The notes beneath the pieces are model-generated. The model did not search any database. It saw only the letters and a list, made by a program, of their open reading frames with translations, and was not told where the DNA came from. The position numbers were made by a program, and so were the translations under genes. From Limnohabitans sp. WS1 (GTDB taxonomy: Bacteria; Pseudomonadota; Gammaproteobacteria; Burkholderiales; Burkholderiaceae_C), in contig NZ_NERU01000001.1 in assembly GCF_003063265.1 (NCBI RefSeq), positions 434,001 to 498,000 of the forward strand: a stretch of 64,000 nt of DNA. Reading direction: 5' to 3'. Shown here piece by piece: positions 3,253-64,000 of the stretch (its first letter is position 1; the number at the start of each line of letters is the position of its first letter).

Positions 3253-4251
3253 ATGAAAAGAAGACAACTGTTGTGGGTCGGCGCTGCCATCGGTGGTGCG
3301 GCCATGTGGCCAGAGGCCCGATTGCTGGCTCAGCAAGCGCAGGAATTCATTGAGGGTCCGCCTGTGGCCGATATTCCGGCCAGGCAACTCTCGCCGCATG
3401 TCTGGATGGTGTTTTCTCCGGATGGTTTTCCAACCGTTGAAAACCGGGGCATGATGTCCAATGTGATCTTTGTCGTGACCTCCGCAGGCGTGGTGGTGAT
3501 CGATTCGGGTGCTTCACTGCAAATTGGTCAAATGGCCATTCGCATGATCCGCAAGGTGACCGACAAACCCGTGGTGGCCGTGTTCAACAGCCACTACCAC
3601 GGTGACCATTGGTTGGGCAACCACGCTTTTGTCAAAACCTATGGCAACAAACTGCCCATTTACGCACTGCCCAGCACCATTGAAAAACTCAAAGGTGCCG
3701 AAGGCAATTTGTGGCGCAGCCTGATGGAACGCTGGACCAACCAGTCCACCTTGGGCACGCAGGTGGTCTTGCCCAACACGCCGGTGCAGCATGGCCAAGT
3801 CATCCAGATCGGTGACGTGAGCTTTCGCATGCACCACTATGGCACGGCCCATACACCGTCTGACCTGTGTGTTGAGGTTGTGCAAGACAAACTCACAGCG
3901 GTGGGTGATATCGCCATGGCCAACCGCATTGCCAACATGGACGAAGGTTCGTACGTGGGCACTTTCAAGTATTACAAGGCCTTGATGGCGGCCACGGGTG
4001 AACAAATGTGGGTGCCCGGCCATGGCCTGGGCAGCAAGGATTTGCTCAAGTCATATGGCGAGTTCATGGCGGGCATTTGGGAGCCTTGTTTGCAAGCCGT
4101 CAAAGACGGCAAGAGTGAAGCAGATGCCCGCAGCATGGTTCTCAAAGATGCTCGGGTGCAGGCACGAGCCAAGTCCATGCAGGGGTTTGAGGGCAACATT
4201 GGCAAATACATCAGCCTGGCGTATCTAGAGGCTGAAAAAGAAGCGTTTTGA
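3253..4251 (+). CDS. SoxH-like metallo-beta-lactamase-fold hydrolase
   Basis: The 332-residue exported protein has a KRRQLL n-region and a hydrophobic stretch (possibly Tat), followed by an MBL fold. The zinc motif HYHGDHW lies near residues 114-120, with further ligands in GTAHTPSD, VGDIAM and PGHG. The family includes SoxH and the metallohydrolases of quinoprotein relay systems found beside periplasmic oxidation genes; the exact substrate is unknown. The ATG at 3253 has a good GGAGG site and lies 50 bases after soxB, so it probably belongs to the same operon. The fold is certain, the SoxH name is by context. Confidence 0.8.
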   Translation: MKRRQLLWVGAAIGGAAMWPEARLLAQQAQEFIEGPPVADIPARQLSPHVWMVFSPDGFPTVENRGMMSNVIFVVTSAGVVVIDSGASLQIGQMAIRMIRKVTDKPVVAVFNSHYHGDHWLGNHAFVKTYGNKLPIYALPSTIEKLKGAEGNLWRSLMERWTNQSTLGTQVVLPNTPVQHGQVIQIGDVSFRMHHYGTAHTPSDLCVEVVQDKLTAVGDIAMANRIANMDEGSYVGTFKYYKALMAATGEQMWVPGHGLGSKDLLKSYGEFMAGIWEPCLQAVKDGKSEADARSMVLKDARVQARAKSMQGFEGNIGKYISLAYLEAEKEAF

Positions 4252-4338
4252 GCCGATCAGCACGGATGTCATGACCGTTGTGCATGGACTGGGCACGGCC
4301 AGGTCCCGTGATTCAAAATAAAAATTCGGGGGGTGGGG

Positions 4339-5061
4339 ATGACAAATTTCAATGCAAAACAGCCTGTTCAAGCCATGGGTTTGCTCTGGTTCAGAAGTCG
4401 CGATGATGTGACGCCCTTCATCAATGACACAGCGGTTCGCATTCGAGCGGGGATCATGATGGCGGTGCCTGTGTTCATGGTGTTCACCTTGTTGGACATT
4501 GTTTTTGGCACTCGCTGGGTGGTGACGGGTGAGGTCATCACTGACACGTTTGAGACCGATTTCGACGGACGCATTTTGTACATGGTTGAGGCGGTCAGAC
4601 GCACTTATGACTACACCTTGCAGACAGGCATTTTGTTTTATGCTTTGTTTGAAATGCTGGCGGGCATGAGTGTCAAAACGGCTTATCTGTCGCCAACCAT
4701 TTGGCTGTCCAGCTGGCTGGCCAGAAGGTCGAAAGCGGTTTGGAAGCCCTTGGCCCCTAAACGCTTTGCATGGACCATCGGCACATGCATGATCGGTTTT
4801 TGTTTGATTTTTTTCCATCCAGAAAAGTTTGCAGCCGCCGTGAATTTTGTGCTTCGAACGCCAGTGCTGCCCACCACCGAGCAATACCTGGCTCGATGGT
4901 TGCCCTTGGTGATGGTTTGGGTTTGCTTGGGCTTCATGTGGCTGGAGGCTGTGCTCGGGTATTGCCTTGGCTGTGAGTTACATGCCCTGTTGGTCAAGGT
5001 GGGCCTGTTCACACAAGAATGCGAAGCCTGTCATAACTTGGACTTTGGGCCTTCTTCTTAA
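4339..5061 (+). CDS. Multi-pass membrane protein, DUF4395-like
   Basis: The 240-residue protein has about four hydrophobic segments: near residues 36-55, 95-110, 150-165 and 193-215. The segment EAVLGYCLGCELHALLVK near the C-terminus resembles the end of DUF4395 membrane proteins, which often sit beside sulfur genes; I assign this family tentatively. The tail contains CEACH, which has the form of a c-type haem site but may be coincidental. The ATG at 4339 follows a run of Gs that could act as a ribosome-binding site; a GTG at 4333 is also possible. Its function is unknown. It follows the sox genes in the same direction. Confidence 0.6.
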   Translation: MTNFNAKQPVQAMGLLWFRSRDDVTPFINDTAVRIRAGIMMAVPVFMVFTLLDIVFGTRWVVTGEVITDTFETDFDGRILYMVEAVRRTYDYTLQTGILFYALFEMLAGMSVKTAYLSPTIWLSSWLARRSKAVWKPLAPKRFAWTIGTCMIGFCLIFFHPEKFAAAVNFVLRTPVLPTTEQYLARWLPLVMVWVCLGFMWLEAVLGYCLGCELHALLVKVGLFTQECEACHNLDFGPSS

Positions 5062-7484: not shown

Positions 7485-9467
7485 ATGATCAAGTTTGTCC
7501 TTCCTTTTTTGCAAAATCGCATTGAACGGTCTCCACAGCGCTGCGATCTGGATTTTGAAGATTCACCTTTTGGTGTGGTGTTTGTCGAAGCAAAAACAGG
7601 CCGTTTCAAGCGTGTGAATGGTGTTTTTGCCAACTTGATGGGGCGTTCGGCCGATCAATTGCTGGGTGTGCGATGGCCTGACTTGTCGCCTTTGGCGCTG
7701 CAAAAAACACCTGTTTATGCGGAACAAGGGCCAGATCATTCGCGGCCATCACCCGATACCTGGGTGCAATCTTTTTTAACGGAACCCGGCAAATCCGTCG
7801 TGGCAGAGGTCTCGTGCTTGACGTCCATGAAAGATTCGCAAGATGAGCTTTTGTGGATTTACATCGTCAAAGACCTTGCTGACAAAATCGATGCACAAAC
7901 TCAATTGCGGGTCAGTGAACAGCGCCACCGCGTGGTGGCCGACAGTGCACGCGATGTCATTTGGAGCATGAGTACCTTGGGTGAAATCACCTATGTCAGC
8001 CCTGCGGTTGAAAAGCTTCGGGGTGTGACGCCTGCAGAAGCCATGCAAATGCCCCTCCATGAAACACTGACGCCTCCATCGGCTGAGGTCAGCATTGCCT
8101 ATTTTCAGCAAGTGGCCAAGGCGGTGCAGTGCGGAAAAACACCCGATAGTTTTCAAGGCGAGTTGGAGTATTTTCGCAAGGATGGTTCCACGTTTTGGAC
8201 CGAGTGCCTGTCTTTTCCATTGATGGATACCCATGGCAATTTGGTTGAAATCGTGGGTGTGACCCGTGACATCAGTGAGAGAAAACACTACGAAGACTGC
8301 CTTCTTCAGGCCCGTCAGCAGGCTGAAATGGCCAACACGGTCAAAACCCGATTTCTCTCTCAAATCGGCCTTGCTGTGCAAACAGCGGTCAAGGATTTTC
8401 TACCGCACCTGAGCGCCACCGAGCCGGGTTCTGGCGGGGAGGGCGAGTTGAATTCAAAGTCGCTTCAAAAGGCGCAAAAGTCTGCCGCCTTTTTATTGAG
8501 CATGGCCCAGGATATTTTGGATTTCTCTCGTCTTGAAAACCGGGAATTGGTGTTGGTGCGTGAGCGATTTCAATTGTCCGATGTGTTGGAGACCTTGAAT
8601 CGTTTGTGGGCCCAAGATGGGCCAGTGTCCAGACCCACCATCACCATCCATGTGGCCTCGGGTGTGTCCGATCATTATTCGGGTGATGCCTCGCGATTGG
8701 TGCAAGCCTTGTTCAACTTGCTGTGGGTTGCTGTTCAAAGTTCAGACTCGGGTTCTTTGGTGTTGCAGGTGGTGCATTTGGAGCGGGATCGGGATTTTGA
8801 AAATCTGCTGTTGACCGTTCGATCGCAAGCGGTTGACCCAAATTGTCATGTGCCAACCAGCGATGAGCGCCAGACGCAAGCTACATGTGGTGTTGTCGAG
8901 CAACAAAGGTCGATGGACTGGCATGTGGCCCTTTGCAAGCAGCTGGCTTTGCTGATGGGAGGCGATCTGCAAGCCCAGCCCGATGAGGATGGCAGAACCG
9001 TCTGGGGTTTGAAGCTTCGGCTTCAAGCGTGCAACGCTGGGGTCCATCGGACGCCAGAGGCCTTGGCGCGGTCTTGGCCTGGCACCCGCATCCTGGTGGT
9101 GGACGATCACCGTTCCATTCGGGATATTGTCAAACACGTTTTGGAAATGTCACAGGTCACGGTGGATGCGGCCGAAAATGGTTGGATGGCGCTGCAGATG
9201 ATGGAAAGCCTCTCTTATGACCTGGTGTTGATGGATTTGCAAATGCCTGTGATGGGGGGGATGGATGCCACCCGCCATATTCGAAAGCAAGCCCGGTTTC
9301 AAAATTTGCCCATTGTGGCTTTGTCAGCTTCAGGTGATGACGATGAGCTTGAGCGGTGGAAGTCTGAGGGCATCACGGACCATTTGGTCAAACCTTTTGA
9401 CTCTGAGCGATTGTGGTCCGTTGTGCAGCGACACTTGTCGGCCAAAAAAGTCGATTCGCCAAATTGA
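7485..9467 (+). CDS. PAS-PAS hybrid sensor protein with degenerate histidine-kinase core and intact receiver domain
   Basis: The 660-residue protein has no membrane segments. It has two PAS domains (about residues 20-130 and 140-270, the second ending GVTRDISERKH), a dimerisation/kinase-like region (280-530) and a C-terminal receiver (538-655). The receiver is intact: VVDDH, phospho-acceptor D584 in LMDLQMP, and a conserved Lys in LVKPF. The kinase core is not: the H-box reads FLSQIGLAVQT with Leu296 where the phospho-accepting His belongs, the N-box Asn is Val415, and the glycine-rich ATP boxes are not recognisable. It probably acts as a scaffold or receives phosphate from another kinase. 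Confidence 0.82.
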   Translation: MIKFVLPFLQNRIERSPQRCDLDFEDSPFGVVFVEAKTGRFKRVNGVFANLMGRSADQLLGVRWPDLSPLALQKTPVYAEQGPDHSRPSPDTWVQSFLTEPGKSVVAEVSCLTSMKDSQDELLWIYIVKDLADKIDAQTQLRVSEQRHRVVADSARDVIWSMSTLGEITYVSPAVEKLRGVTPAEAMQMPLHETLTPPSAEVSIAYFQQVAKAVQCGKTPDSFQGELEYFRKDGSTFWTECLSFPLMDTHGNLVEIVGVTRDISERKHYEDCLLQARQQAEMANTVKTRFLSQIGLAVQTAVKDFLPHLSATEPGSGGEGELNSKSLQKAQKSAAFLLSMAQDILDFSRLENRELVLVRERFQLSDVLETLNRLWAQDGPVSRPTITIHVASGVSDHYSGDASRLVQALFNLLWVAVQSSDSGSLVLQVVHLERDRDFENLLLTVRSQAVDPNCHVPTSDERQTQATCGVVEQQRSMDWHVALCKQLALLMGGDLQAQPDEDGRTVWGLKLRLQACNAGVHRTPEALARSWPGTRILVVDDHRSIRDIVKHVLEMSQVTVDAAENGWMALQMMESLSYDLVLMDLQMPVMGGMDATRHIRKQARFQNLPIVALSASGDDDELERWKSEGITDHLVKPFDSERLWSVVQRHLSAKKVDSPN

Positions 9468-9493
9468 ATGCATGACCCGATCGTCGGGCGGCT

Positions 9494-10390
9494 TCAGAGT
9501 GATCTTGTCTTGAAAAGCCAATGGGCCGCGCCATCGGGAATGCCACTGACGGGTCGACCTTGAAAAAATACCTGCAAGCTGGACCACTTGGGGCTGTGCA
9601 CCAAAAATGGCGGATCGCCATAGACGCTGCGCGATGCCCCTGCCTTGAGTTCAAGGCTGGTCAGCTGATTTTGTTGGTCACGAACGCACAGGCTGACATC
9701 TTGCGAGGCTAAAAAGTGGATGTAATTGCCCGCCTTGATCGGATGGGCGGGTTCGTAAGCAAAGCTGGCGTGCCGAAGTTGGCCATCGCAGGCACTGACT
9801 TCTGGCTTGGGGGAGTGGGTCCAGGCGGTGCCTACGGCGGCTGAGCTGGGCATTGGCTGCAGGGCGTTCAAATTCAGCGAGGAGATGGCGATGTCGTCAC
9901 TCGGGTCTGAATGAGGCTTTGCTGCATGGCCCGGCTCGGTTTGTGGCTTGCTCAGATTGAACAAGGGCTGCGCGTTTGGGGTGAATGCCAAACGCGGCCC
10001 CCACAGCTGCCAAGTCATCCAAGTCAGGCCACCCATCAGCAGCAAGGCGCTGGCTTGACGAGGGGTGATGAAACGAAAGCTTGGCCTGTGGCTTGGTGGT
10101 GTAACGGGGCCCAAGCTGGCAACTGTTGAAGTGCCCAGAGTCTGCTCAATGTTCTGCGGTTCATCAGGGGGAACCCATTCATGGCCTAATTTTTTGAGCA
10201 ATTTGATGCCGGTATTGGCTTTGATCTGCGGGTTGTAGAAGCTGCCTGTACCGTGGCCTTCCAGTTCTTGGAGTTGGGCCAATGACAGGGCGTTGAGTCG
10301 AGCAAAGACCAAGCTGTCGGTTTTTGCTTTTTCTCTCAGTTGCTGAAGAAGCTGGGCTTCCTCTGTTCGCCAAATCAGGTTTGTATTCAT
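9494..10390 (-). CDS. RodZ-like membrane protein with C-terminal DUF4115-type domain
   Basis: The 298-residue protein has an N-terminal cytoplasmic region (residues 1-110), one membrane helix (about 118-140) and a periplasmic region. The C-terminal part, with VSLCVRDQQNQLTSLELKAG and a GDPPFLVHS segment, follows the pattern of the RodZ C-terminal domain. RodZ links MreB to cell-shape control, but here the N-terminal helix-turn-helix is weak, so this is a divergent relative. The ATG at 10390 has a strong AGAGGG site; an upstream in-frame start at 10423 is less likely. It converges with the kinase-like gene. Confidence 0.6.
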   Translation of the reverse strand: MNTNLIWRTEEAQLLQQLREKAKTDSLVFARLNALSLAQLQELEGHGTGSFYNPQIKANTGIKLLKKLGHEWVPPDEPQNIEQTLGTSTVASLGPVTPPSHRPSFRFITPRQASALLLMGGLTWMTWQLWGPRLAFTPNAQPLFNLSKPQTEPGHAAKPHSDPSDDIAISSLNLNALQPMPSSAAVGTAWTHSPKPEVSACDGQLRHASFAYEPAHPIKAGNYIHFLASQDVSLCVRDQQNQLTSLELKAGASRSVYGDPPFLVHSPKWSSLQVFFQGRPVSGIPDGAAHWLFKTRSL

Positions 10391-50354: not shown

Positions 50355-51188
50355 CTATCTGGAAACCAGCTTTTCGTGCAACAGTTCAATGACCGAATTG
50401 AGCGGTGGCGCCTGAAGCTGGTTCTTTTGAAGGAAGGCATGCCATTGCTTGCTTTTCTGCGGATCGTGACCAAAGACTGGTGAAAAACCAATGGGCGTCG
50501 ATGTCGGCATGGGTGTTTGACGCCGTTCAAGCGTGGCTGCGATGGCCGTTTGCATCATTTCAGGATCGAGCGCTTGGGTCGAGAGTAAGACCCACAGGTC
50601 AAAGTAGTCTTTGAGGCGGGTGTTGGCCATGCCCAACGAAACGATGGCTTCGAACTTCTCGGCCACCACGGTGTAACGCGGATAGACCCTGATCCTGGGT
50701 GCAGGCAGGTCCGCCAACATCACCGGATAGTCGGCCAGCTCCGGCGCTGGTGTGACGGCATCACCGTAGCCAATGTCGACTTGCACTGGGCAGCGTGCAC
50801 CATCGAGCTGACCTTGCAGCGTGACGCGCAATCCCGAGTAATTGGCATCCTTGCGAATCTCGGTGACTTGAATGCTGCTTGCGTCAAACACAATGGCGTC
50901 ATCGCATTCAATACCGCAAATTTCGCGAAACACCTCATGCACAACGGGTTCTTCTGCCAATCCAAAACCGAGCAGGTCGATGTCGCGGGTGGGCCGATGC
51001 GGAACATCGAACCACATGTCAAACAGCAATGCGCCCTTGAGCAAAAAATGGTCTTTGTTGGGTGAAACACTCAAACGGTAGAGCAGACGCTCCAAGCCGT
51101 AGCGGGTCAAAACCAGCGAGAAATCTAGCTTGTCGGCTTTGGCCTTGTTGAGTAGTCTAGCCCTGACCGATGCAGGCTTGTTGATCAT
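50355..51188 (-). CDS. abiEii: AbiEii-type nucleotidyltransferase toxin
   Basis: The 277-residue protein has the AbiEii/DUF1814 nucleotidyltransferase pattern: KGALLFDMWFDVPHRPTRDIDLLGFG (about 51-76) with the Asp pair of the active site, the ITRYTVVAEKFEAIVSLGM-like block (here PRYTVVAEKFEAIVSLGM) and RLKDYFDLWVL. AbiE is a type IV toxin-antitoxin pair linked to phage defence; related toxins transfer nucleotides to tRNA. It is translated after abiEi with an ATGA overlap, and the fadJ gene ends 31 bases away. Confidence 0.9.
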   Translation of the reverse strand: MINKPASVRARLLNKAKADKLDFSLVLTRYGLERLLYRLSVSPNKDHFLLKGALLFDMWFDVPHRPTRDIDLLGFGLAEEPVVHEVFREICGIECDDAIVFDASSIQVTEIRKDANYSGLRVTLQGQLDGARCPVQVDIGYGDAVTPAPELADYPVMLADLPAPRIRVYPRYTVVAEKFEAIVSLGMANTRLKDYFDLWVLLSTQALDPEMMQTAIAATLERRQTPMPTSTPIGFSPVFGHDPQKSKQWHAFLQKNQLQAPPLNSVIELLHEKLVSR

Positions 51189-51787
51189 GCGGTCAGCCCT
51201 TCCAGGTAAGGCCGCATCACGTTTTGCACGCGGCAAATCTGCCCGTAGTGCCAAAGCTCATCCATCGTGACCCGCTTGGCGCGCCATGCTTCTTTCAGCG
51301 CTTCCAGTGCCACGTCCAGGCCGATTTTGTTTCGGAACTTGAAGCAGTCCGCGATGGTTTTGGCCACGCACGTCACATTGACTGAAACGCCTTCAATGTC
51401 GTGTACCGCTACGCCCTCGGTCAGCGCTGGGCCACTGAAACGCGCAACGCGCAGGGGCGGGTAATCGAACTGTGGTGCGCGGGCTTTGTTGTCCACAGCC
51501 ACCCACACCTCAAAGGGTGCTTGCGTCGTCAGTCCGTGAAAAGCCAGTGCAGACAGCAGGCACACCAAAACTTGCGGGTGTTTGCTTGCCACTTCGGCCA
51601 AGCCAGCGAACTCGGAGGCTTGGCGCTGGGGCAGTGCATACAGCCCACGACTGAGCTTGTGAACCAGCCCTCGGCTGGCCAGTTGCGCCAGATATAGACG
51701 CGAACGGCCCTGTGCTACGGCATCACTGGGGCGCAGCAGTGCCTTGCCTTGGGCAAGAGCAGCGAGGGAGGCTGGGGTGGGTGACAT
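51185..51787 (-). CDS. abiEi: AbiEi-type antitoxin
   Basis: The 200-residue protein has an N-terminal winged helix (DAVAQGRSRLYLAQLASRGLVHKLSRGLYALP, about 22-53) and the AbiEi C-terminal domain (VKTIADCFKFRNKIGLDVALEALKEA-type sequence, here AKTIADCFKFRNK). AbiEi antitoxins repress their own operon by binding DNA. A TTGACA/AATAAT promoter lies directly upstream. It overlaps the toxin gene by four bases. Confidence 0.9.
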   Translation of the reverse strand: MSPTPASLAALAQGKALLRPSDAVAQGRSRLYLAQLASRGLVHKLSRGLYALPQRQASEFAGLAEVASKHPQVLVCLLSALAFHGLTTQAPFEVWVAVDNKARAPQFDYPPLRVARFSGPALTEGVAVHDIEGVSVNVTCVAKTIADCFKFRNKIGLDVALEALKEAWRAKRVTMDELWHYGQICRVQNVMRPYLEGLTA

Positions 51788-54326: not shown

Positions 54327-55322
54327 TCATATTAAAATTCCGTGGCATTCTTTAAATCGCTTACCACTTGCACACCAGCACGAAGAATTTCGGGGTTGAT
54401 TCCAATCGGGAATAATGTGTTCATTGATGAATGTTATTTTGGAATTATTTTCTTGATTTATATTTTTCAAAGAACCTGGAAAATTATTCTCCGTATAAAA
54501 CAACGATTCAAAAGCTTTGAATTTTTCTGATTTTATGGCTTTTGATTTTTTTGGTGCCACGTACATTGCTGCACCTATTCCTGAAATAGATGAAATAAAA
54601 TCGTCAAAACCAAATTTTTTAGCAAAAGTAAAACCACCATTAAATGCCAATCCTATTCTTGGTAAGTCTGATAATAATGTGCCAATTTTAAAAGATGGAA
54701 TAATATTTTCAATCCAACTTCTGTCCGTCGCTCGTTGAATATCAGTAATTATTTTTTGTATTTCCTTAATTTTTCTATCTTCTTTTCTTTCAGGGTTGGA
54801 GGAATTTGATATATCGTCAACATAGTCTTCAATCTCATACTGAAGAAGTTGAATTAGTTTTCCATGTTTATATTTAAATTCTAAAATATCGCATAATGGC
54901 GTGTCGTTGGGTGGGCATGGTAAAGAATTTACTAAATTTATTTCTAGTATATTTTTTTCTATAATGCTATTGCTAATTGATGTCAATTGGTTAGGGGCGA
55001 ATTGGCCTATTGTCCAAGTTTTTTCTTGAATTTCTTGAAGTTTTTGATAGGCGAGAAGTTGTGTTGTTAAGTTATCTTTGTATATATTTAAATTATCTGA
55101 AGGCAGATTTATAAATACTTCCGAAGCAATATTTTGATCTAACAAAAGACGCAGATCTGTTGAATCAATATGGTATTTATTATTTCTTGAGATGACAATT
55201 TCATCCCAGTACAGTAATGATTTTCTTAATTCGTGCTGATCAATTCCACCTGTAATTGTTGTTGAATTGGTTTGTGAGTTAAAGTCAATTTTTGCAGGTT
55301 GTAAAATAATACCTTTTTTCAA
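54327..55322 (-). CDS. Unknown protein with C-terminal SEC-C zinc motif
   Basis: The 331-residue protein ends with NQPRNSSCWCASGKRFKECHG, the SEC-C metal-binding motif (CxC...CH) first seen in SecA. The rest is unrecognised; the N-terminal part (GIILQPAKIDF, ELRKSLLYWDEIVIS) reads like a family of defence-associated hypothetical proteins, but I cannot confirm that. The start is TTG at 55322 with a strong AAGGA site; ATG/GTG choices further up would overlap hsdR. The gene is AT-rich and is the last gene of the hsd locus, 28 bases after the hsdR stop. Confidence 0.7.
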   Translation of the reverse strand: MKKGIILQPAKIDFNSQTNSTTITGGIDQHELRKSLLYWDEIVISRNNKYHIDSTDLRLLLDQNIASEVFINLPSDNLNIYKDNLTTQLLAYQKLQEIQEKTWTIGQFAPNQLTSISNSIIEKNILEINLVNSLPCPPNDTPLCDILEFKYKHGKLIQLLQYEIEDYVDDISNSSNPERKEDRKIKEIQKIITDIQRATDRSWIENIIPSFKIGTLLSDLPRIGLAFNGGFTFAKKFGFDDFISSISGIGAAMYVAPKKSKAIKSEKFKAFESLFYTENNFPGSLKNINQENNSKITFINEHIIPDWNQPRNSSCWCASGKRFKECHGILI

Positions 55323-55350
55323 TTTATTTTCCTTAATTTTAATTTGTGAT

Positions 55351-57699
55351 TTAATTCGAATACAAATACCGCTGCATCCCCACAAACGCCTGCCTGACCT
55401 GCACCGCATCCCCCAATTCCGCCATCGCGTCATTCAGCGCGTTGTAGCGCAGCTTGAGCAGCGGGGTGAGTTTGTCGGCGTCGAGTTGGTCTACGCCTTG
55501 GGTCACGTATTGCTCCAGCACAAAGGCCAGAAAGGCTTGTTGCTTTTCCCCATACGTCACCGCGTTGTGGGCCTTGGCTCGATTCGCGCGGGTGGCGCGT
55601 GTCTCGGTGGGCAGGGCAAAGGCCACGTAGGCCAGCACGTCGAAGAGGTCGCTTTTTTCGGCTTCGATGATGCGTTGCATTTCGCGCAGCGGGTCGCGGC
55701 CAAAGCCTTTGTCGGCTAGGCCGTTCAGCAGCGCTTTGCGTGTGGTCGGGTCGGCCCACAGGGTGCGCAGTTCGTCTTCGTTTTTGAAGAATTCGGGTAG
55801 GGCACCGAACAGGCTTTCCAAAAACTGCGCGGGTGACAGCGGCTTGCCGTCTGGGCCCCAATAACTGGTGGACGTGATGTGCTGGATGGTGCGGGTTTTG
55901 CCGTCGGCCAGTTTGACCACCAGCTTGGCCGGGCGCTCTTCGCCCGGCATGCTCGCTTTGGGTGGCTCGGTCGGGTCTTGCGGTTGCCAGCTTGGCGGCA
56001 AAGGCTTTTCGGCGGGTGGCTCGGGCTCCACGGGTTCGCCATCCCATTCCGGGTCGCTGAACAGGTGGTGCGCCTTCACAAAGTCATAGATCGTGAAGTA
56101 GTCTTTGCCGTCATACAGGCGGGTGCCGCGCCCGATGATTTGCTTGAACTCGATCATCGAATTGACGGGCCGCATCAGCACGATGTTGCGCACATTGCGG
56201 GCGTCCACGCCTGTGGAGAGTTTTTGCGACGTGGTCAGGATGGTGGGCAGTGCTTTTTCGTTGTCCTGAAACTGGCTCAGGTGCTGCTCGCCCAGCTTGC
56301 CGTCGTTGGCCGTCACGCGCACGCAGTAGTCGGGTGCGGGGCTGGTCTTGATCTGGTTGATCAGGTCGCGCACCAGCAGGGCGTGCTGCTGGGTGGCGCA
56401 AAACACGAGGGTCTTTTCGCGCTGGTCGATGCTGTCCATGAACAGCTTGACGCGATAGGCCTCGCGCTCTTTGATCTCGATGCTGCGGTTGAAGTCTTTT
56501 TCTTCGTAACGCTTGCCTTGCTGCACTTCGCCGTCCATCACCATGTCGTCGGCGGTGTAGACGTAATCGTCCAGCGTGGTCACGATTTGCTTGACGCGAA
56601 ACGGTGTCAAAAAGCCATCGTTGATGCCGTCCTTGAGCGAGTAGGTGTAAACCGGGTCACCAAAATAGCCATAGGTGTCGGCGTTGATCGTGCGCTTGGG
56701 CGTGGCCGTCAGGCCCAGCTGCACGGCGGGGCTGAAGTACTCCAGAATCGCCCGCCAGCTGCCTTCGTCGTTGGCGCCGCCCCGGTGGCACTCGTCGATG
56801 ATGATGAAGTCAAAAAAGTCCGGTGGGTATTCGCCAAAGTAGGGGGTCTCCCCCGGCCCGCTCATGAAGGTCTGGAAGATCGTGAAGAACACGCTGCCGT
56901 TCTTGGGCACGCGGCCTTTCTTCTTGATGTCGCTAGGGTCGATGCGCACCACCGCATCTTCGGGGAAGGGCGAGAACGCGGTGAACGCCTGATCGGCCAG
57001 GATGTTGCGGTCTGCCAAAAACAAAATGCGCGGGCGGCGGCTGGGCGAGGCATCGGCAGAAAGGCCGTCTTTCCAGTCCTTCAAATTCCAGCGGCTGTGA
57101 AACAGCTTCCACGCCAGCTGAAACGCGATGAAGGTTTTGCCCGTGCCTGTGGCCAGCGTCAGCAGCACACGGTCTTTGCCATTGGCCACCGCCTCCAGCA
57201 CGCGGGTGATGGCGCTCTCCTGGTAATAGCGGCCCATCCAGGTGCCGCCTTTGTCTTCGAGCGGCACGGCGGCAAAACGTTTGCGCCAGGCGGCCGTTTG
57301 CGCTTCGCTCTCGCCAAAGGCCATGTCCCACAGTTCGTCAGGCGTGGGGTAGCGGGCTACCTGCGCTTCAGCCCCTGTTTGCATGTCGATGCCGTAAATG
57401 CCCTGGCCGTTGGTGGCGTAGGTGTGGCGAATGGCCAGCTTGGCCGCGTAGCTCTTGGCCTGGCCCACCCCCTCGGTCAGCGGCTTGGCCCAGGCCTTGG
57501 CCTCGATCACCGCCAGCTTGGTGTTGCGGTAGACCAGCACATAGTCGGCAATGTCGGCCCGCGCCCGCTTGCCCGCGCCCTGCAGGCGACCCGCCGTGAT
57601 GTTGTGCTCCCGCAAGATGCGGCTGCCATCCACCTGGCCCCAGCCTGCGGCGGCCAGGGCGGGGTCGATGTGTTCGGCGCGGGTTTCGGCTTCGTTCAT
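55351..57699 (-). CDS. hsdR: Type I restriction endonuclease subunit R (EcoEI-like)
   Basis: The 782-residue protein has the nuclease motif D52...E66-A-K68 near the N-terminus, an SF2 translocase with Walker A ATGTGKT at 183-189 and DECH at 302-305, and the EcoEI-type C-terminal domain. It cuts foreign DNA when the HsdS/HsdM complex finds an unmethylated site. The start overlaps the stop of the BRO-like gene (ATGA). A 40-base near copy of its 5' end is at 58659-58698. Confidence 0.93.
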   Translation of the reverse strand: MNEAETRAEHIDPALAAAGWGQVDGSRILREHNITAGRLQGAGKRARADIADYVLVYRNTKLAVIEAKAWAKPLTEGVGQAKSYAAKLAIRHTYATNGQGIYGIDMQTGAEAQVARYPTPDELWDMAFGESEAQTAAWRKRFAAVPLEDKGGTWMGRYYQESAITRVLEAVANGKDRVLLTLATGTGKTFIAFQLAWKLFHSRWNLKDWKDGLSADASPSRRPRILFLADRNILADQAFTAFSPFPEDAVVRIDPSDIKKKGRVPKNGSVFFTIFQTFMSGPGETPYFGEYPPDFFDFIIIDECHRGGANDEGSWRAILEYFSPAVQLGLTATPKRTINADTYGYFGDPVYTYSLKDGINDGFLTPFRVKQIVTTLDDYVYTADDMVMDGEVQQGKRYEEKDFNRSIEIKEREAYRVKLFMDSIDQREKTLVFCATQQHALLVRDLINQIKTSPAPDYCVRVTANDGKLGEQHLSQFQDNEKALPTILTTSQKLSTGVDARNVRNIVLMRPVNSMIEFKQIIGRGTRLYDGKDYFTIYDFVKAHHLFSDPEWDGEPVEPEPPAEKPLPPSWQPQDPTEPPKASMPGEERPAKLVVKLADGKTRTIQHITSTSYWGPDGKPLSPAQFLESLFGALPEFFKNEDELRTLWADPTTRKALLNGLADKGFGRDPLREMQRIIEAEKSDLFDVLAYVAFALPTETRATRANRAKAHNAVTYGEKQQAFLAFVLEQYVTQGVDQLDADKLTPLLKLRYNALNDAMAELGDAVQVRQAFVGMQRYLYSN

Positions 57700-58550
57700 T
57701 TGCTTGACTTCTTTTTGGCAGCAATGGCTTTGCGCTTGGTAGGTGGAGCCAGATAGTTGTCGCCTGTCACCACAGACCGGCCTGTTTTCTGCTCCAGCTG
57801 TTGGCGTGCCTGTTTGGCAATGCGCCCACCCACCACTGCAGCCCCTTTGTTCTCTTGTAAGCCCGTGGCTTGCTGCGTTTCCGCCACTTGTCGGGTTGAG
57901 AGTTCAGCCAAGGCTGTGAAGATCAGCTCGGCCTCACTCATGTGGTCGCGCAGGTTGTGGGTTTTCAGGCCCTTGATGTTCTTGTGCTCTTTCACACTCA
58001 CGCCCGACCACTCTTGGTGAATGATGTTGGTGAGAAAAGCGAATTCGTCGCCGCTTTTTACATCGTGTTCGCGCCAATAGTCGGTCAGTTTGTTGCGGGT
58101 TTCCTGTCCCGTCATGCGCTGCTGAATCCACTTGTCGCTGCGGCCATGCTGTTGCCACGTCTCGCGGGCGCGGTTGAGGGACAGGGCGGGGTCGGCCATT
58201 TCCAGCATGCGCTCGTAGCCCACCTTGGCCAGCCAGAGCTTTATGGGCTCAGCCTTGGGGCTAGGGATGGACTGCACCAAGCGAAGCAGCGTAGTGACTT
58301 CTGCACAGTCTGTTTCACGCAAACGGCCGTCTGTTGAGGCCAATTTCAACTGTACGATTTTCTCGTACAGTTGCTCGGAACCCGCTTCTTTTGCCAGTTT
58401 GCGCTTGAGATCCGACCAGTAGCGACGAGCGTTGCTGCTATCAGTCAGAACCTGCACGACGTCCACCACCGAGAACCACCAAGTCTCACTGGCTTCGTCA
58501 TAAACACGGCGAATGTCTTTGCCGTCGAAGTGCGCTGCTGCAATGTTCAT
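57696..58550 (-). CDS. BRO/DinD-like protein inside the hsd locus
   Basis: The 284-residue protein has an N-terminal BRO-type domain (about 6-110, with WWFSVVDVVQVLTDSSNARRYWSDLKRKL) and a DinD-like C-terminal half (TNIIHQEWSGVSVKEHKNIKGLKTHNLRDHMSEAEL) ending in a basic tail. BRO domains occur in phage antirepressors and DinD is damage-induced in E. coli; similar genes often sit in type I restriction loci, with unknown role. ATG 58550 has a GAGG site; an ATG at 58598 is possible. It is coupled to hsdR by an ATGA overlap. Confidence 0.82.
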   Translation of the reverse strand: MNIAAAHFDGKDIRRVYDEASETWWFSVVDVVQVLTDSSNARRYWSDLKRKLAKEAGSEQLYEKIVQLKLASTDGRLRETDCAEVTTLLRLVQSIPSPKAEPIKLWLAKVGYERMLEMADPALSLNRARETWQQHGRSDKWIQQRMTGQETRNKLTDYWREHDVKSGDEFAFLTNIIHQEWSGVSVKEHKNIKGLKTHNLRDHMSEAELIFTALAELSTRQVAETQQATGLQENKGAAVVGGRIAKQARQQLEQKTGRSVVTGDNYLAPPTKRKAIAAKKKSSK

Positions 58551-58658
58551 GAACCAGTCCTCAAATGCTTGTGATGATTTGGACCATATGGAGGACATCC
58601 TCTATAGGGGCGCCCAACCGATAGCTGCATGTTGCGCGCGTTTCGCAGTCGCTCCGAC

Positions 58659-58698
58659 CGGGGTCGATGTATTCGGCGCAGGTTTCGGCTTCGTTCAT
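58659..58698 (-). pseudogene. Duplicate of the hsdR 5' end
   Basis: Forty bases differ at only about two positions from 57660-57699, the start of hsdR. On the minus strand it reads MNEAETCAEYIDPG before the similarity ends. It has its own ATG, which again overlaps the stop of the upstream frame (ATGA), as at the real hsdR. Confidence 0.8.
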
Positions 58699-58886
58699 GG
58701 TTGAAGCCATCCGTCCGCGTCCATGCGGGTGCCGGATGACACGCTGGTTTGTTGAGCATCCGTCAACTTGACCTGCGCACTCTGGAGCCAGGCCACTGCG
58801 TCCTTGGCGTTGGTCGCTTGCTGTTTGACGGGGGCATCTGGCTCACTGGCCAGGCGCTGAAAAGATCGCAGCATCAAAATGTCCAA
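58695..58886 (-). pseudogene. Truncated HEPN-like partner of the nucleotidyltransferase
   Basis: A 63-codon frame (SFQRLASEPDAP ... DAVAWLQSAQVKLTDAQQTS) that resembles only the first part of HEPN proteins encoded after MNT nucleotidyltransferases. The remaining about 100 residues of a HEPN domain, including the RxxxxxH RNase motif, are absent; the frame ends at the junction with the hsdR 5' duplicate. It overlaps the 3' end of the nucleotidyltransferase gene. The HEPN assignment is tentative. Confidence 0.5.
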
Positions 58887-59530: not shown

Positions 59531-59599
59531 TCAAAGCTGTCCGCTGAAGGCTTGGTGCAGCAGGGGGTGTCTGAAGGCGTCGAGGGCAGTGATTTTGGT
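59531..59599 (-). pseudogene. Duplicate of the hsdS 3' end
   Basis: On the minus strand this reads ITALDAFRHPLLHQAFSGQL and stops with TGA, matching the hsdS C-terminus (LTALDDLKKSLLHQAFSGQL). A 24-base stretch (59542-59565) is identical to 61580-61603. Upstream of this the similarity is lost, so only the last 23 codons of an hsdS gene remain, in frame and with their own stop. Confidence 0.8.
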
Positions 59600-59605
59600 G
59601 GGGTA

Positions 59606-59794
59606 ATCAAAACCCAGTTAAGAAAATTTGGGTGTTTAAGAGTGTCCCAAGTTATTGATTTCTATGAAAAATCAATTTTCCAGGAGTCAATGGGATGGGA
59701 GTTGATCAAAACCCAATCAAGAAATTTGTGTCTCAAAAAAGCCAGTGGGATGAGCCGCAAATGGGTTTGTGACTCGCGGGTGAGTCACAAACAC
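59606..59794. repeat. Spacer with direct repeats and hairpins downstream of the DUF262 gene
   Basis: No gene. ATCAAAACCCA occurs at 59606 and again at 59705, each followed by similar A-rich sequence (period 99 bases). ATTGATTT/AAATCAAT forms a hairpin near 59654-59675, and TTTGTGACTC/GAGTCACAAA (59766-59791) forms a perfect 10-base stem directly after the DUF262 stop, without a T tract. Confidence 0.55.
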
Positions 59795-61495
59795 TCAAAT
59801 AAAGTCCGAGCGCCACACATGCGCTGCCCGCTGGGCCATGCGTTCTTGGCGCAGTGCCAGGGTGGCGGGTGACCAATCGGCCTGATCGCTTAGCCCCAAC
59901 GCGTTGGCGGTGGCATAACTACTTCGCCCGTACTCGGTTCGTTTGTCTTCAAAACTGCCGTTTTGGCATTGGCGGTTGATGGTTGGCTCCAGCAGCATCA
60001 GGTTGCCCAAACGGTAGATGAAGTCTTTCTGGCGATCCGGGTTGAAGGGTTCGTCCCATTGCGCAGAGGGGTTCTCGGGCAGGATGTGCTCGATGGTGCC
60101 GGTGTCGCTTTCCCAATCGTGATGCTTGCCCGATGCGTCGCTTTCCAGTTCGCACAGCAGGTACTTGACCACTTTCTTGCGTCGACCGGTGGTGTCCATC
60201 TCTTTATGCGAAAAGTCGCGGACAAATTTTTCATCGTCCACGTACACGCTGCGCAGCTGCGCAAACACTTCTGCAGGCGTGCGGACAGCCCCATCCAGCA
60301 AGGCCTTGGCGGCCCGGTGATAGACAGGTTCCAGCTCGTTGGTGTTCAGGCTGCCAATCACGGTGTAGCGCACCGACAGCACGCACAGCAGCTTGAGAAC
60401 GCGGGTGAAGTCGTCCGCGCTCATTCGCTCCCAAGCGGCAAACACCAAGGGCATGTGCTGGCGCACGCCAAACAACTGCAAGTCCCGCACATAGGGCTTG
60501 GCAGCTGGGCGGTCCAGCCAAAACTCGTGCGCAGTGTCGTCCATGGCAGCGAACAGGTCTGCGCGTTGCTCCAGTGCATCCATCAGGGCAAACACATCTG
60601 CCGATGTTTTGACCTCTTCGCGCACCTTCTTGAACAGGCGTTGTTTGCGAATCTGTGGAGACTGGCACAGCAAGTGGTAACGCAAAAAGTCTGGAAAGCG
60701 CTCGTGCTTAATGGTACCGATCATGTGACGCCACCGGCGCTGCAACGCTTCCAAATCGCTACGAACTGGTACGCGGGAGAACAAGTAGTTTTTCAGCAGA
60801 TCGGTAGACGACAACTCCAGCCCTCGGGCATTGAGTGTTTCGAACACGGTGTAAGCGCTGATGTCATCTTCGACCGTGATCAGGATGAAAAGCAGTTGCC
60901 GCGCAACCGTGTCAGACAGCATGCGAGCAAGGGCCTCACCCTCCAATCCGGAGTCTGCAAGCCGCTTTTGGAACCAACCAAAACATTGCCACAGCATCCG
61001 ATTGGACTTTGGCAGTCCACGCGGGTTGTTTGGCTTGCGCAGTTGAACCAGATAGTCTTGATAAAACCCATCATCGGTATCGTTGAGGAACAGCTTGCTG
61101 CTTTGCATCAGAGACGCGGGGTCTTTCCGGCCTATGAACAGTTGGCGCAGCTCAGCCGCTCGTTCGGCATTGGCTGTGTTTGTGGCTTCATCACCGGGTA
61201 AATTCAAGAGACGGTCGATCACCGCTAAGGCCAACACACTCAGTGTCGCAACACGTTGCTGGCCGTCAATGATCTGGAATTCACGGTCCGTGACGGCCTC
61301 GACCACCAAAGCGCCCATGTAATGGAAGCTTCGTGGCGCATTCAGCAACTCCTGAATGTCGTTCCACAGGTCTTCCCACTGTTCCTCTTCCCAAGCGTAG
61401 TCGCGTTGAAACGAAGGTACACGGTATTTCTTGCCGTTACCAATCAAGTCCAGAAAGGTGACGTCTTGGGTCTTTAACAAATTGCTTTTGGCCAT
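59795..61495 (-). CDS. DUF262/DUF1524 nuclease-type protein (GmrSD-like)
   Basis: The 566-residue protein has an N-terminal DUF262 (ParB/sulfiredoxin-like) domain with VPSFQRDYAW at 26-35 and IIDGQQR at 75-81, a helical middle, and a C-terminal DUF1524 HNH-type nuclease domain with IEHILPENP and NLMLLE. Such proteins include the type IV enzyme GmrSD and BREX/phosphorothioate-linked nucleases that attack modified DNA. ATG 61495 has an AGGA site at good distance; ATG 61504 is less well placed. It lies between hsdS and a duplicated hsdS 3' end. Confidence 0.86.
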   Translation of the reverse strand: MAKSNLLKTQDVTFLDLIGNGKKYRVPSFQRDYAWEEEQWEDLWNDIQELLNAPRSFHYMGALVVEAVTDREFQIIDGQQRVATLSVLALAVIDRLLNLPGDEATNTANAERAAELRQLFIGRKDPASLMQSSKLFLNDTDDGFYQDYLVQLRKPNNPRGLPKSNRMLWQCFGWFQKRLADSGLEGEALARMLSDTVARQLLFILITVEDDISAYTVFETLNARGLELSSTDLLKNYLFSRVPVRSDLEALQRRWRHMIGTIKHERFPDFLRYHLLCQSPQIRKQRLFKKVREEVKTSADVFALMDALEQRADLFAAMDDTAHEFWLDRPAAKPYVRDLQLFGVRQHMPLVFAAWERMSADDFTRVLKLLCVLSVRYTVIGSLNTNELEPVYHRAAKALLDGAVRTPAEVFAQLRSVYVDDEKFVRDFSHKEMDTTGRRKKVVKYLLCELESDASGKHHDWESDTGTIEHILPENPSAQWDEPFNPDRQKDFIYRLGNLMLLEPTINRQCQNGSFEDKRTEYGRSSYATANALGLSDQADWSPATLALRQERMAQRAAHVWRSDFI

Positions 61496-61562
61496 GGTCG
61501 TCATCCTAATTTATTTGGACAGCGTGGATTTTCTGCGGGTGACAGTGTGCTTAAATTTGCAC

Positions 61563-62684
61563 CTACTGCGTCAACTGCCCGCTGAAGGCTTGGTGCAGCA
61601 GGGATTTTTTGAGGTCGTCGAGGGCTGTGAGTTTTTGGCGGTAGATGGATTCGAGGCGAGTAGTCTCGGTTGCGATCTCATCCAAATTTTCTGAAATGCG
61701 CGTTTGCTCTTGCACCGAAGGTAATGCGACCTGATAGGCGAACAAGTGCTCTCGATTGACTTTAGGCATTCCCGCACGGGCCGAACCCTTGATTGCATAC
61801 TCGGTAAAGGCTGGAGCCAGTAGCAGGTAGTAAAGATAGTCACGGTTGATGACGCCCGGCTTGGGAGCCAATGGATAAATATCTGCACTGCAAAGTCCAT
61901 TGAAATCTGGACGAACCACTTTCATCAAGTAGGGCCGAATCTTGCTGTACAGAACCATTGATTCGTCGAACAAGAACTTGCCAGAAATCAGATTTTCTTC
62001 ACGAGCAGTTTTGACATCAACCAGTGCGCTGGTTTTGGTTTCGATGTTTCCAGCGCCTACGTGGGGCAGATCTAAATATTGATTTTCTCTTGGATCAACC
62101 AATTTAGAGGTGATGTCGCACACATCAGCCATTGACTGTTTGGTTCTACCGCATGATGTGCAGTCAACCAGTGATTGCAGCGTATTGTCAAAAAGCTCGC
62201 GGGCGTTTTGGAGGTTCTTTTCGGTGTTGGCTTTGGCGGTGGCGATGTCGGCAAAGGCTTCGTCGAGGAGGGTGACGATGCGGCGTTGTTCCGCAAAGTC
62301 AGGATAGATAACGCTATGTTCCTTGAGTAATCGGTAGTGTCTTGCGTACCCAAGAGATTCGAGCTTTGCAGTTTGAAGCTGAAAATAAAAGTAGCGAGGA
62401 TGCAAAAAGGCTTTTGGCTTGAGTATCTTGACGCCATCCGCACCAAGAACGAAGTCGAAATCTACATATTTGAATGACCGAGTGTGGTCACCAAAAAGAA
62501 CAAGTGGCCGTTCGACTTTAAATAAGTCCGCATCGTTTTCCCATCTTCCGTTGATGAGGTCGTCTTCTTGGGAAACGATAGGAAATGTGCCCTCACTCAA
62601 AAAATCCTTACGTTGAATTTTTGTGGTGTAGGTGACTGGCTCAATGCAGTCTTCAAAAGGGGTGGTTTTCCAACCCGCCTTCAC
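61563..62684 (-). CDS. hsdS: Type I restriction specificity subunit S
   Basis: The 373-residue protein has two target-recognition domains (about 1-125 and 170-320) separated and followed by conserved helical repeats (FAEQRRIVTLLDEAFADIATAKANTEKNLQNA and QEQTRISENLDEIATETTRLESIYRQKL). It reads the bipartite DNA target for methylation and cleavage. It overlaps hsdM by four bases (ATGA). The last 23 codons are duplicated about 2 kb downstream. Confidence 0.93.
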   Translation of the reverse strand: MKAGWKTTPFEDCIEPVTYTTKIQRKDFLSEGTFPIVSQEDDLINGRWENDADLFKVERPLVLFGDHTRSFKYVDFDFVLGADGVKILKPKAFLHPRYFYFQLQTAKLESLGYARHYRLLKEHSVIYPDFAEQRRIVTLLDEAFADIATAKANTEKNLQNARELFDNTLQSLVDCTSCGRTKQSMADVCDITSKLVDPRENQYLDLPHVGAGNIETKTSALVDVKTAREENLISGKFLFDESMVLYSKIRPYLMKVVRPDFNGLCSADIYPLAPKPGVINRDYLYYLLLAPAFTEYAIKGSARAGMPKVNREHLFAYQVALPSVQEQTRISENLDEIATETTRLESIYRQKLTALDDLKKSLLHQAFSGQLTQ

Positions 62685-64000
62685 GCCAACAACCCCCGAA
62701 TACTCCCCAATACCGCTGCCGCTTCGGCATCCAGCGCCGCAATCTCATCCAGAATGTCTGCCGGGCTGCGGTGCACCACTTCTTCGCCGCCATTCGGGTT
62801 TTTCACCGACAGGTCAAACGTGTCCAGGTTCACGCTGCCTGCGGCCACGCTCCAGCTTTTGGGCGAGTCGGCTTGCGCCTTTTGCAGCTGCACAAACTCC
62901 ACCAAGTCCGCGTCGTTCAGCGGGTTGGTTTTGCCCATGTTGCGGCCGGGGTCCAGTTGGTAGAACCAGGTCTTGCTTGTCGGTTCGCCTTTGGTGAAGA
63001 ACAGCACCACGGTTTTCACACCCGCGCCCTGAAAAGTGCCGCCGGGGCAGTCCAGCACGGTGTGCAGGTTGCAGTCGGTCAGCAGCTGTTTGCGCAGGGC
63101 CACGCTGGCGTTGTCAGTGTTGCTGAGGAATGTGTTTTTGATGACCACCGCCGCACGGCCCCCGGCTCGCAGGCTTTTGATGAAGTGCTGCATGAACAAG
63201 AAGGCGGTTTCCCCGGTTTTGATGGGGAAGTTTTGCTGCACCTCTTTGCGCTCTTTGCCGCCAAAGGGCGGGTTGGCCAAAATCACGTCGTAGCGGTCAC
63301 GCTCTTGAATGTCGTTGATGTTTTCGCCCAGCGTGTTGGTGTGCACGATGTTGGGCGCTTCGATGCCGTGCAGGATCATGTTCATGATGCCGATCACGTA
63401 GGCGAGGCTCTTTTTCTCTTTGCCGTAGAAGGTGCGCTTTTGCAGCGTGTCCAGGTCGTCGGCCTTGGTGGCTTTGGGGCTGAGGTACGCAAAGGCTTCG
63501 CACAAAAAGCCCGCCGAGCCGCAGGCTGCGTCGTAAATGCGTTCGCCAATTTGGGGCTGCATCACCTCGATCATGGCGCGGATCAGTGGGCGCGGTGTGT
63601 AGTATTCGCCGCCGTTGCGCCCGGCGTTGCCCATGTTTTTGATCTTGGCTTCGTACAGGTGCGACAGCTCGTGCTTTTGCGCCTGGCTGCAAAAGCGCAG
63701 CTCTTCGATGCGGTCGATCACGTCGCGCAGGTTGTAGCCGCTTTGGATTTTGTTGGTGATCTCGCCAAAGACTTCACCGATTTTGTATTCGATGGTCTGC
63801 GGCCCGCTGGCGCGTTGCTTGAATCCCGCCAGATACGGGAACAGTTTGCCGTTGACAAAGCCTTTGAGGTCGTCGCCCGTCATGGCGGCGTTGTGGTCGA
63901 TCTTGCCGTCGGCAGCTTTGGGCGCAGCCCATGCGGCCCAGCGGTATGGCTCGCTCAAGATGAACTGGTAGTCACGCCCCTCCAGCACCGCCTCGGTGGC
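62681..64000 (-). CDS. hsdM: Type I restriction methyltransferase subunit M (N-terminus beyond window)
   Basis: The frame is open to the right edge, so the first about 50-70 residues are missing. Visible parts are the N-terminal helical region, the AdoMet motif DAACGSAGFL (153-162 counted from the GTG at 63988) and the N6-adenine methylase motif NPPFGG at 239-244, with EYYTPRPLI before it. HsdM methylates adenine at sites chosen by HsdS. It is the first visible gene of the minus-strand hsd locus. Confidence 0.93.
   Translation of the reverse strand, partial: ATEAVLEGRDYQFILSEPYRWAAWAAPKAADGKIDHNAAMTGDDLKGFVNGKLFPYLAGFKQRASGPQTIEYKIGEVFGEITNKIQSGYNLRDVIDRIEELRFCSQAQKHELSHLYEAKIKNMGNAGRNGGEYYTPRPLIRAMIEVMQPQIGERIYDAACGSAGFLCEAFAYLSPKATKADDLDTLQKRTFYGKEKKSLAYVIGIMNMILHGIEAPNIVHTNTLGENINDIQERDRYDVILANPPFGGKERKEVQQNFPIKTGETAFLFMQHFIKSLRAGGRAAVVIKNTFLSNTDNASVALRKQLLTDCNLHTVLDCPGGTFQGAGVKTVVLFFTKGEPTSKTWFYQLDPGRNMGKTNPLNDADLVEFVQLQKAQADSPKSWSVAAGSVNLDTFDLSVKNPNGGEEVVHRSPADILDEIAALDAEAAAVLGSIRGLLA

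Follow-up and report, generated by a model that had tools for sequence, protein, structure and literature searches.

Defence genes embedded in type I restriction-modification loci have already been published. DarTG2 of enteropathogenic Escherichia coli lies between hsdS and hsdR, at a site that the relevant passage of PMC12255303 calls a potential recombination hotspot, and the same text cites a 2024 preprint by Payne et al. on embedded defences. In the corresponding passage of PMC11411939, TgvAB of Vibrio cholerae, a DUF262/DUF1524 pair, is likewise placed between hsdS and hsdR, and RloF of Campylobacter jejuni is mentioned as an embedded example. Here we describe a type I locus of Limnohabitans sp. 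WS1, contained in a stretch of 64,000 nucleotides (contig NZ_NERU01000001.1, positions 434,001-498,000; hereafter the window), in which three cargo modules are stacked between hsdS and hsdR. The place and the kinds of cargo, including DUF262/DUF1524 proteins, are the same as in the published cases. However, the passages of the two papers that deal with embedding contain neither displaced gene ends, nor fusions of an hsdR start to an hsdS end, nor stacked alleles with simpler counterparts, all of which we found. Comparison of the window with related loci suggests that small defence or toxin-antitoxin modules replace each other or stack in the interval from hsdS to hsdR, which makes it a turnover site, and that stacking proceeds by recombination anchored in shared hsd genes on one side and relying on short shared bases on the other. 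We put the probability of this joint explanation at about 0.62.

A preliminary description of the window had noted that the end of hsdS recurs in frame, with its own stop, beyond the DUF262 gene. This second end is real: on the minus strand, 59537-59605 matches 61575-61643 in register at 56 of 69 positions (81%). The repeat scores 43, a value reached by none of 976 random 330-nucleotide segments of the window, the best of which scored 20. The whole relic, 59531-59605, reads YPTKITALDAFRHPLLHQAFSGQL in the hsdS frame up to its own TGA; some 190 bp separate it from the end of the DUF262 gene (59795-61504). The exact pair of intervals proposed earlier, 59531-59599 and 61563-61631, had to be abandoned (only 17 of 69 bases identical), because the working hsdS has two extra codons (TQ) before its stop; likewise, the long identical run is there, but it measures 25 bases when counted by eye, not 24. 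None of the usual starts is available for translating the relic: an in-frame stop codon precedes it by five codons, and ATG, GTG and TTG are all missing from the intervening stretch. The locus, whose genes are all on the minus strand, is laid out as follows (window coordinates).

62681-64000, minus: hsdM, open at the window end (Pfam N6_Mtase, E 4.7e-61)
61563-62684, minus: hsdS, working copy (Pfam Methylase_S, E 2.8e-16)
61563-61643, minus: tail of the working hsdS, counterpart of the relic, ending GQLTQ-stop (13 tails compared)
59795-61504, minus: GmrSD-type DUF262/DUF1524 gene, cargo module 1 (Pfam GmrSD_N, E 1.4e-35; GmrSD_C, E 7.8e-28)
59704-59724, minus: element TTTCTTGATTGGGTTTTGATC, with a diverged second copy at 59606-59628 adjoining the hsdS tail relic
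59531-59605, minus: probable relic of a former hsdS 3′ end with its own stop, in unbroken homology with the hsdS-nucleotidyltransferase junction of related locus L007
58843-59463, minus: gene for a MarR-like helix-turn-helix and a nucleotidyltransferase (NTase), antitoxin-like, cargo module 2 (Pfam NTP_transf_2, E 4.8e-9; PADLOC PDC-M05A, E 3.7e-86)
about 58699-58886, minus: partner gene of the NTase with an internal deletion, from sequence comparison, limits set by eye
58659-58698, minus: relic of the first 40 bases of an hsdR (38/40 identical to 57660-57699)
57696-58598, minus: BroN-domain gene, cargo module 3 (Pfam Bro-N; PADLOC PDC-S13, E 2.1e-118)
55351-57699, minus: hsdR, working copy (Pfam ResIII and EcoEI_R_C)

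The origin of the hsdS relic can be traced in the loci of the nearest relatives, which according to record titles are Limnohabitans and other Burkholderiales. In L007, the end of a working hsdS is followed directly by the NTase gene and then by an intact copy of its partner, which we take to be HEPN-like. Window positions 59605-58708 align with L007 positions 8807-9705 without a break (791/897 identical), and the alignment starts where the relic starts. Upstream of the relic, the window instead matches the DNA that follows the GmrSD gene in L008. The relic ends GQL-stop, like the hsdS of L007, L004 and L002, whereas hsdS located beside GmrSD ends GQLTQ-stop in the window, L003 and L031 and GQLSQ-stop in L008; among the compared tails, the GQLTQ ending occurs only beside GmrSD cargo. 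The most likely source of the relic is an hsdS allele, since displaced, whose end formerly stood directly before the NTase module. The replacement of an older hsdS, one of the alternatives offered in the preliminary description, fits, with [hsdS + DUF262] as the newcomer, because the relic ends GQL-stop and continues unbroken into the NTase gene, as in L007. The idea that the copy resembles hsdS by coincidence, or is a short conserved element with no relation to that gene, has practically nothing left to recommend it: chance is ruled out by the 976 random segments, and the homology with L007 passes straight through the relic into the next gene.

At the other end of the NTase module, a copy of the opening 40 bases of hsdR (57660-57699) occupies 58659-58698, between the remnant of the HEPN-like gene and the BroN gene. 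This second relic is absent from the preliminary description. The HEPN-like gene is intact (159 amino acids) in L007 and L012, and the intact copy matches PADLOC PDC-M05B (E 7.8e-62) and no Pfam family. It is internally deleted in the window and L006 and, judged by a short open reading frame (ORF), in L003, leaving the antitoxin-like NTase alone.

Relatives contain both the stacked arrangement and its simpler counterparts. L003 has the same three modules as the window at 96% identity, and L006 shares the right half with the window and carries other cargo on the left. Simpler alleles were found in close relatives: hsdS-NTase-HEPN-hsdR in L007 and L012, hsdS-GmrSD-hsdR in L008 and, with an additional truncated RhuM, in L031, and hsdS-BroN type-hsdR in L038, the cargo of which is presumably DinD-like.

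A sizeable gap between hsdS and hsdR is the rule among the related loci. Recognisable hsdS and hsdR were present in 77 loci, with a median gap of 1,334 bp; in 68 the gap is at least 150 bp. Of the remaining nine, six show a 4-base overlap, two have 9 bases and one 144. We compared every gap of at least 150 bp with the hsdS ends and hsdR starts of the set. The same gaps, reversed or reverse-complemented, served as controls; in these 136 scans the maximum scores were 22 for hsdS tails and 18 for hsdR heads. Scars above the control maximum were detected in 15 of the 68 gaps, one of them doubtful (L121) and one marginal (L140). Starts of hsdR account for 13 of 68 (window, L003, L006, L002, L024, L088, L119, L139, L145, L146, L147, L157 and the doubtful L121) and ends of hsdS for seven (window, L003, L124 and L139 clearly, L140 by one point, L147 and L157 by matches that we read as chance). 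Inspection of the sequences added three scars: in L119 an hsdS end scoring 21, in L124 an hsdR start scoring 17, and in L145 an hsdS end that scores 15 but follows the hsdR start immediately and reads KKTFVGELTAEPEIITKESTVT up to the stop. In L088 and L146, the hsdR-start relic overlaps the hsdS stop as ATGA, like the border of cargo-less loci, and is followed by cargo and then by the full hsdR. The relic in L147 is 208/212 identical to its counterpart, and the event is therefore probably recent. The scars are not all independent: the window, L003 and L006 represent a single hsdR-start event, the window and L003 a single hsdS-end event, and the joints of L124, L139 and L140 may be related by descent. 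By our own grouping according to shared origin, there are about 11 separate events.

Several matches were set aside, namely the hsdR-start match in L121 (score 19, inside a cargo ORF), the hsdS-tail matches in L147 (24) and L157 (23), which are AT-rich or lie inside a gene and barely exceed the control maximum, and the tail match in L019 (22, equal to that maximum). Beyond the scanned set, and in addition to the window itself, pattern searches gave pairs of hsdR starts lying within 6 kb of each other in G586 (399 genomes searched, 75 of them with a match of any kind) and in G1219, G1077 and G1191 (369 genomes searched, 26 with a match of any kind). The heads in G792 (contig edge), the two-mismatch matches of the 399-genome search and the one-mismatch matches in G1151, G1095, G1097 and G1092 were left out.

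These results bear on the earlier proposal that the hsdS 3′ end is a docking site for defence cargo, to be recognised by an extra hsdS tail behind cargo genes of related loci. Extra tails do recur, clearly in L124 and L139, more weakly in L119 and L145 and marginally in L140, but most gaps are without one. As the only docking site the hsdS end has to be rejected, given that hsdR starts are the commoner scar; the docking region is the whole gap, and no fixed docking sequence was found among the scanned loci.

In four loci (L139, L124, L145 and L119), the scar consists of an hsdR start fused to an hsdS end. In L139, the hsdR residues MNEAET are joined in frame to hsdS QRLESLYQRQFAALNSLKQSLLHQAFSGQL and a stop, giving 36 amino acids; L124 has the same layout, and the fusions of L145 and L119 are out of frame. 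The order in these loci is hsdS, cargo 1, [hsdR start | hsdS end], cargo 2, hsdR, which is the product expected if the right end of one hsdS-cargo-hsdR unit had been joined to the left end of another. Reading the joints by eye, with the genes of the same locus as proxy parents, we found the following bases in common: GAAACCC in L124 (the scar now has GAAATCC), AACCC in L139 (GAAACCC if its parent was L124-like), GCCC in L119, TT(A/G)AAA in L145 and CCAAAA at the tail relic of the window. In 20,000 random joints drawn per locus, at least seven common bases occurred in 0.02-0.08% and at least four in 1.6-2.0%. L124 and L140 contain the same two modules, Fic and BroN, each 87% identical, in opposite order.

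The relics, their likeness to working gene ends, their recurrence in other loci and the fusions are direct observations, and the explanation we favour for them is as follows. Incoming DNA, perhaps acquired by natural uptake, would be anchored by ordinary homologous recombination in hsdM/hsdS or in hsdR, and its other end would be joined close to an end of hsdS or hsdR, through a short stretch of shared sequence. In the window, an [hsdS + GmrSD] segment from another strain would have been joined before the NTase module, so that of the hsdS once standing directly before that module only the last 24 codons and the stop (59531-59605) are left. The BroN module would have arrived with its own hsdR start, leaving behind the first 40 bases of the old hsdR. 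Where a new hsdS-cargo-hsdR unit landed beside the old one, the joint would be an hsdR-start | hsdS-end fusion. We favour this mechanism because one rule covers the hsdS-end relics, the hsdR-start relics and the fusions, as well as L088 and L146. It would resemble homology-facilitated illegitimate recombination in natural transformation, in which one end of the donor DNA is integrated by homology and the other by a few shared bases. The difference is that here the process would be read from genomic relics, and the joints are concentrated at gene ends.

A number of facts weigh against this explanation, which comes from sequence comparison. All relics are very short, even the near-identical one of L147: along their own hsdR they extend only to +24 to +212, and the hsdS ends begin 49 to 105 bases before the stop, whereas long remnants would be frequent if ends were joined blindly. 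Longer HsdR or HsdS fragments may be selected against, or homology may be confined to the conserved gene ends. The multi-module gaps of L079, L134 and L125 have no scar at all. The match to L008 extends 24 bases into the hsdS relic, to 59581, and the position of the joint in the window is therefore uncertain by some 20 bases; more generally, joints were compared through proxy rather than true parents. At 20, the score of the L002 scar is little above the control maximum of 18, and null maxima of other loci go up to 21; what speaks for this scar is its place, at the hsdR start immediately behind the cargo gene. Finally, the genome has a ComEC-like gene, but the same search was positive for 10 of the 14 genomes used as controls, among them E. 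coli.

Other routes to the same relics have to be considered. Tandem duplication, in which two complete hsd loci came to lie side by side and most of the first hsdR and the second hsdS was then deleted, would yield the same fusions, and the 203-bp repeat of the hsdR upstream region in L119, starting inside the end of an AlbA-like gene, is in line with it. We nevertheless consider it unlikely: the short relics would require a deletion that always stops near gene ends, and no two full tandem sets were noticed among the 77 loci, in which no search was aimed at them. The fusion would also be exactly the closing joint of a circular module, [hsdS end-cargo-hsdR start], integrating by homologous recombination into either of these two gene ends at another locus, and the two module orders of L124 and L140 agree with such circles. 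However, neither a circle nor a fixed joint was seen, the break points vary by locus, and the two relics of the window are not fusions, which makes this route improbable. The confinement of relics to the extreme gene ends might in turn suggest site-specific insertion of cargo, as with integrative elements in tRNA genes. Such a process appears highly improbable, since integrative elements and integrons combine a recombinase with a constant crossover site, whereas the hsdR break points are scattered over the range given above, the cargo comes from many unrelated families, and no recombinase or transposase is encoded among the 9 window proteins and 30 cargo proteins scanned, a sample of the gap ORFs.

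As to the contents of the gaps, what varies between strains is a foreign, defence-type gene between hsdS and hsdR, often a toxin-antitoxin, Fic, RhuM, BroN, GmrSD or AAA gene; the gaps of L025 and L093, at least 150 bp long, have no ORF that passed listing. Among 30 cargo proteins, 24 matched Pfam and six did not. The matches include GmrSD, BroN, RhuM-Fic, SoFic, Schlafen-AlbA, HipA, zeta toxin, DUF433/DUF5615, an IrrE-like peptidase with a PIN protein and a reverse-transcriptase-like match just under the cut-off; two further proteins are AAA_13 and presumably RloC-like. In PADLOC, nine of ten tested proteins had matches, mostly to candidate families, the AlbA protein being the one without. 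The window itself follows this pattern. Its hsdM, hsdS and hsdR, carrying N6_Mtase, Methylase_S and ResIII/EcoEI_R_C on one strand, form a type I system, and its first cargo protein, with GmrSD_N and GmrSD_C in one chain, is assigned by these domains to the type IV GmrSD family and matches PADLOC HEC-06 (E 1.1e-216). The setting given for HEC in the relevant passage of PMC11411939 is an Hma cluster; the GmrSD-type cargo of the window, known from sequence, is instead embedded in a type I locus. On the far side of hsdR, a DUF6236/SEC-C gene overlaps the hsdR end (54327-55433) and is followed by an AbiEi/AbiEii pair (50355-51787); the genes after hsdR also vary among relatives.

Loci were kept outside the 77 when hsdS was not found upstream on the contig or when hsdR or hsdS was broken or split over contigs (L010/L085, L029, L030, L032, L034, L036, L037, L039-L042, L046, L047, L090, L091, L094, L095, L135, L137, L149, L152, L154 and the G060 pieces L044, L053, L071, L081 and L082). 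Also outside are the orphan hsdR ends L096-L098, L099-L118 (hsdR identity only 34-40%) and L128, L129, L136, L141, L142, L156, L162 and L164, which have no such hsdR. The other loci of the range L049-L078, recruited by GmrSD, were outside the scar scan, except L052, which is the same place as L144 and was counted once.

Additional elements were observed at these loci. In 90 genomes of the genus, sequences of the TTTCTTGATTGGGTTTTGATC type with at most two mismatches occur four times, all at hsd loci, and 11 times in total with at most three. A TTTCTTGATCGGGTTTTGATC-like element, possibly an operator, was seen in the window (59606-59724), L005, L008, L044, L088, L119 and L024, mostly paired about 100 bp apart (a single copy in L024), after GmrSD or AlbA cargo and before hsdR or a relic. 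Differing arrays of interrupted palindromes, such as GTCGGTGAC..GTCACCGAC and CAGTCGGTTAC..GTAACCGACTG, were noted by eye in the gaps of L002, L004, L005, L008, L012, L031 and L038; they lie either in the stretch from hsdS to the first cargo gene or ahead of hsdR or of a following cargo gene. In L096 (2962-3222), L097 (2992-3201) and L098 (2962-3207; coordinates oriented with the hsdR fragment on the plus strand), an Mrr-type gene, the domains of which were scanned in L097, is immediately followed by an orphan hsdR 3′ end some 67 codons long. These three ends adjoin the same large helicase gene, which we take to be HrpA-like, that flanks the hsd loci of L002, L004, L008 and L031; here an Mrr gene apparently took the place of a type I locus, of which the hsdR end was left. 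A further orphan end was seen as a search match only (G062:C228:11993-12193). L098 also has two ORFs with the same protein start (oriented 479-1486 and 3658-4665), presumably IS30-type transposase look-alikes, of which one lies within the cargo that follows the orphan end. In L095 (G002:C156, 4675-5991), nothing of hsdR but its last 84 or so codons comes after the NTase gene, and the locus either lost most of hsdR or was rebuilt.

In the open-access literature searched, we found no description of such gene-end scars or fusions, nor of how defence genes enter and pile up in type I loci. A far-reaching version of the circular route strikes us as improbable: defence modules with an hsdS end on one side and an hsdR start on the other would form circles through that joint and recombine into the same gene ends of other hsd loci, so that the restriction locus would serve as a general capture platform without a dedicated recombinase. 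On the explanation we prefer, recombination anchored in shared hsd genes, the relics would form a readable record of the gene end at the old border, of the order in which modules arrived and of the head-to-tail joining of hsdS-cargo-hsdR units. A gap that contains a short piece of an hsdR start or of an hsdS end provides a simple signature by which genomes can be scanned for stacked defence modules.

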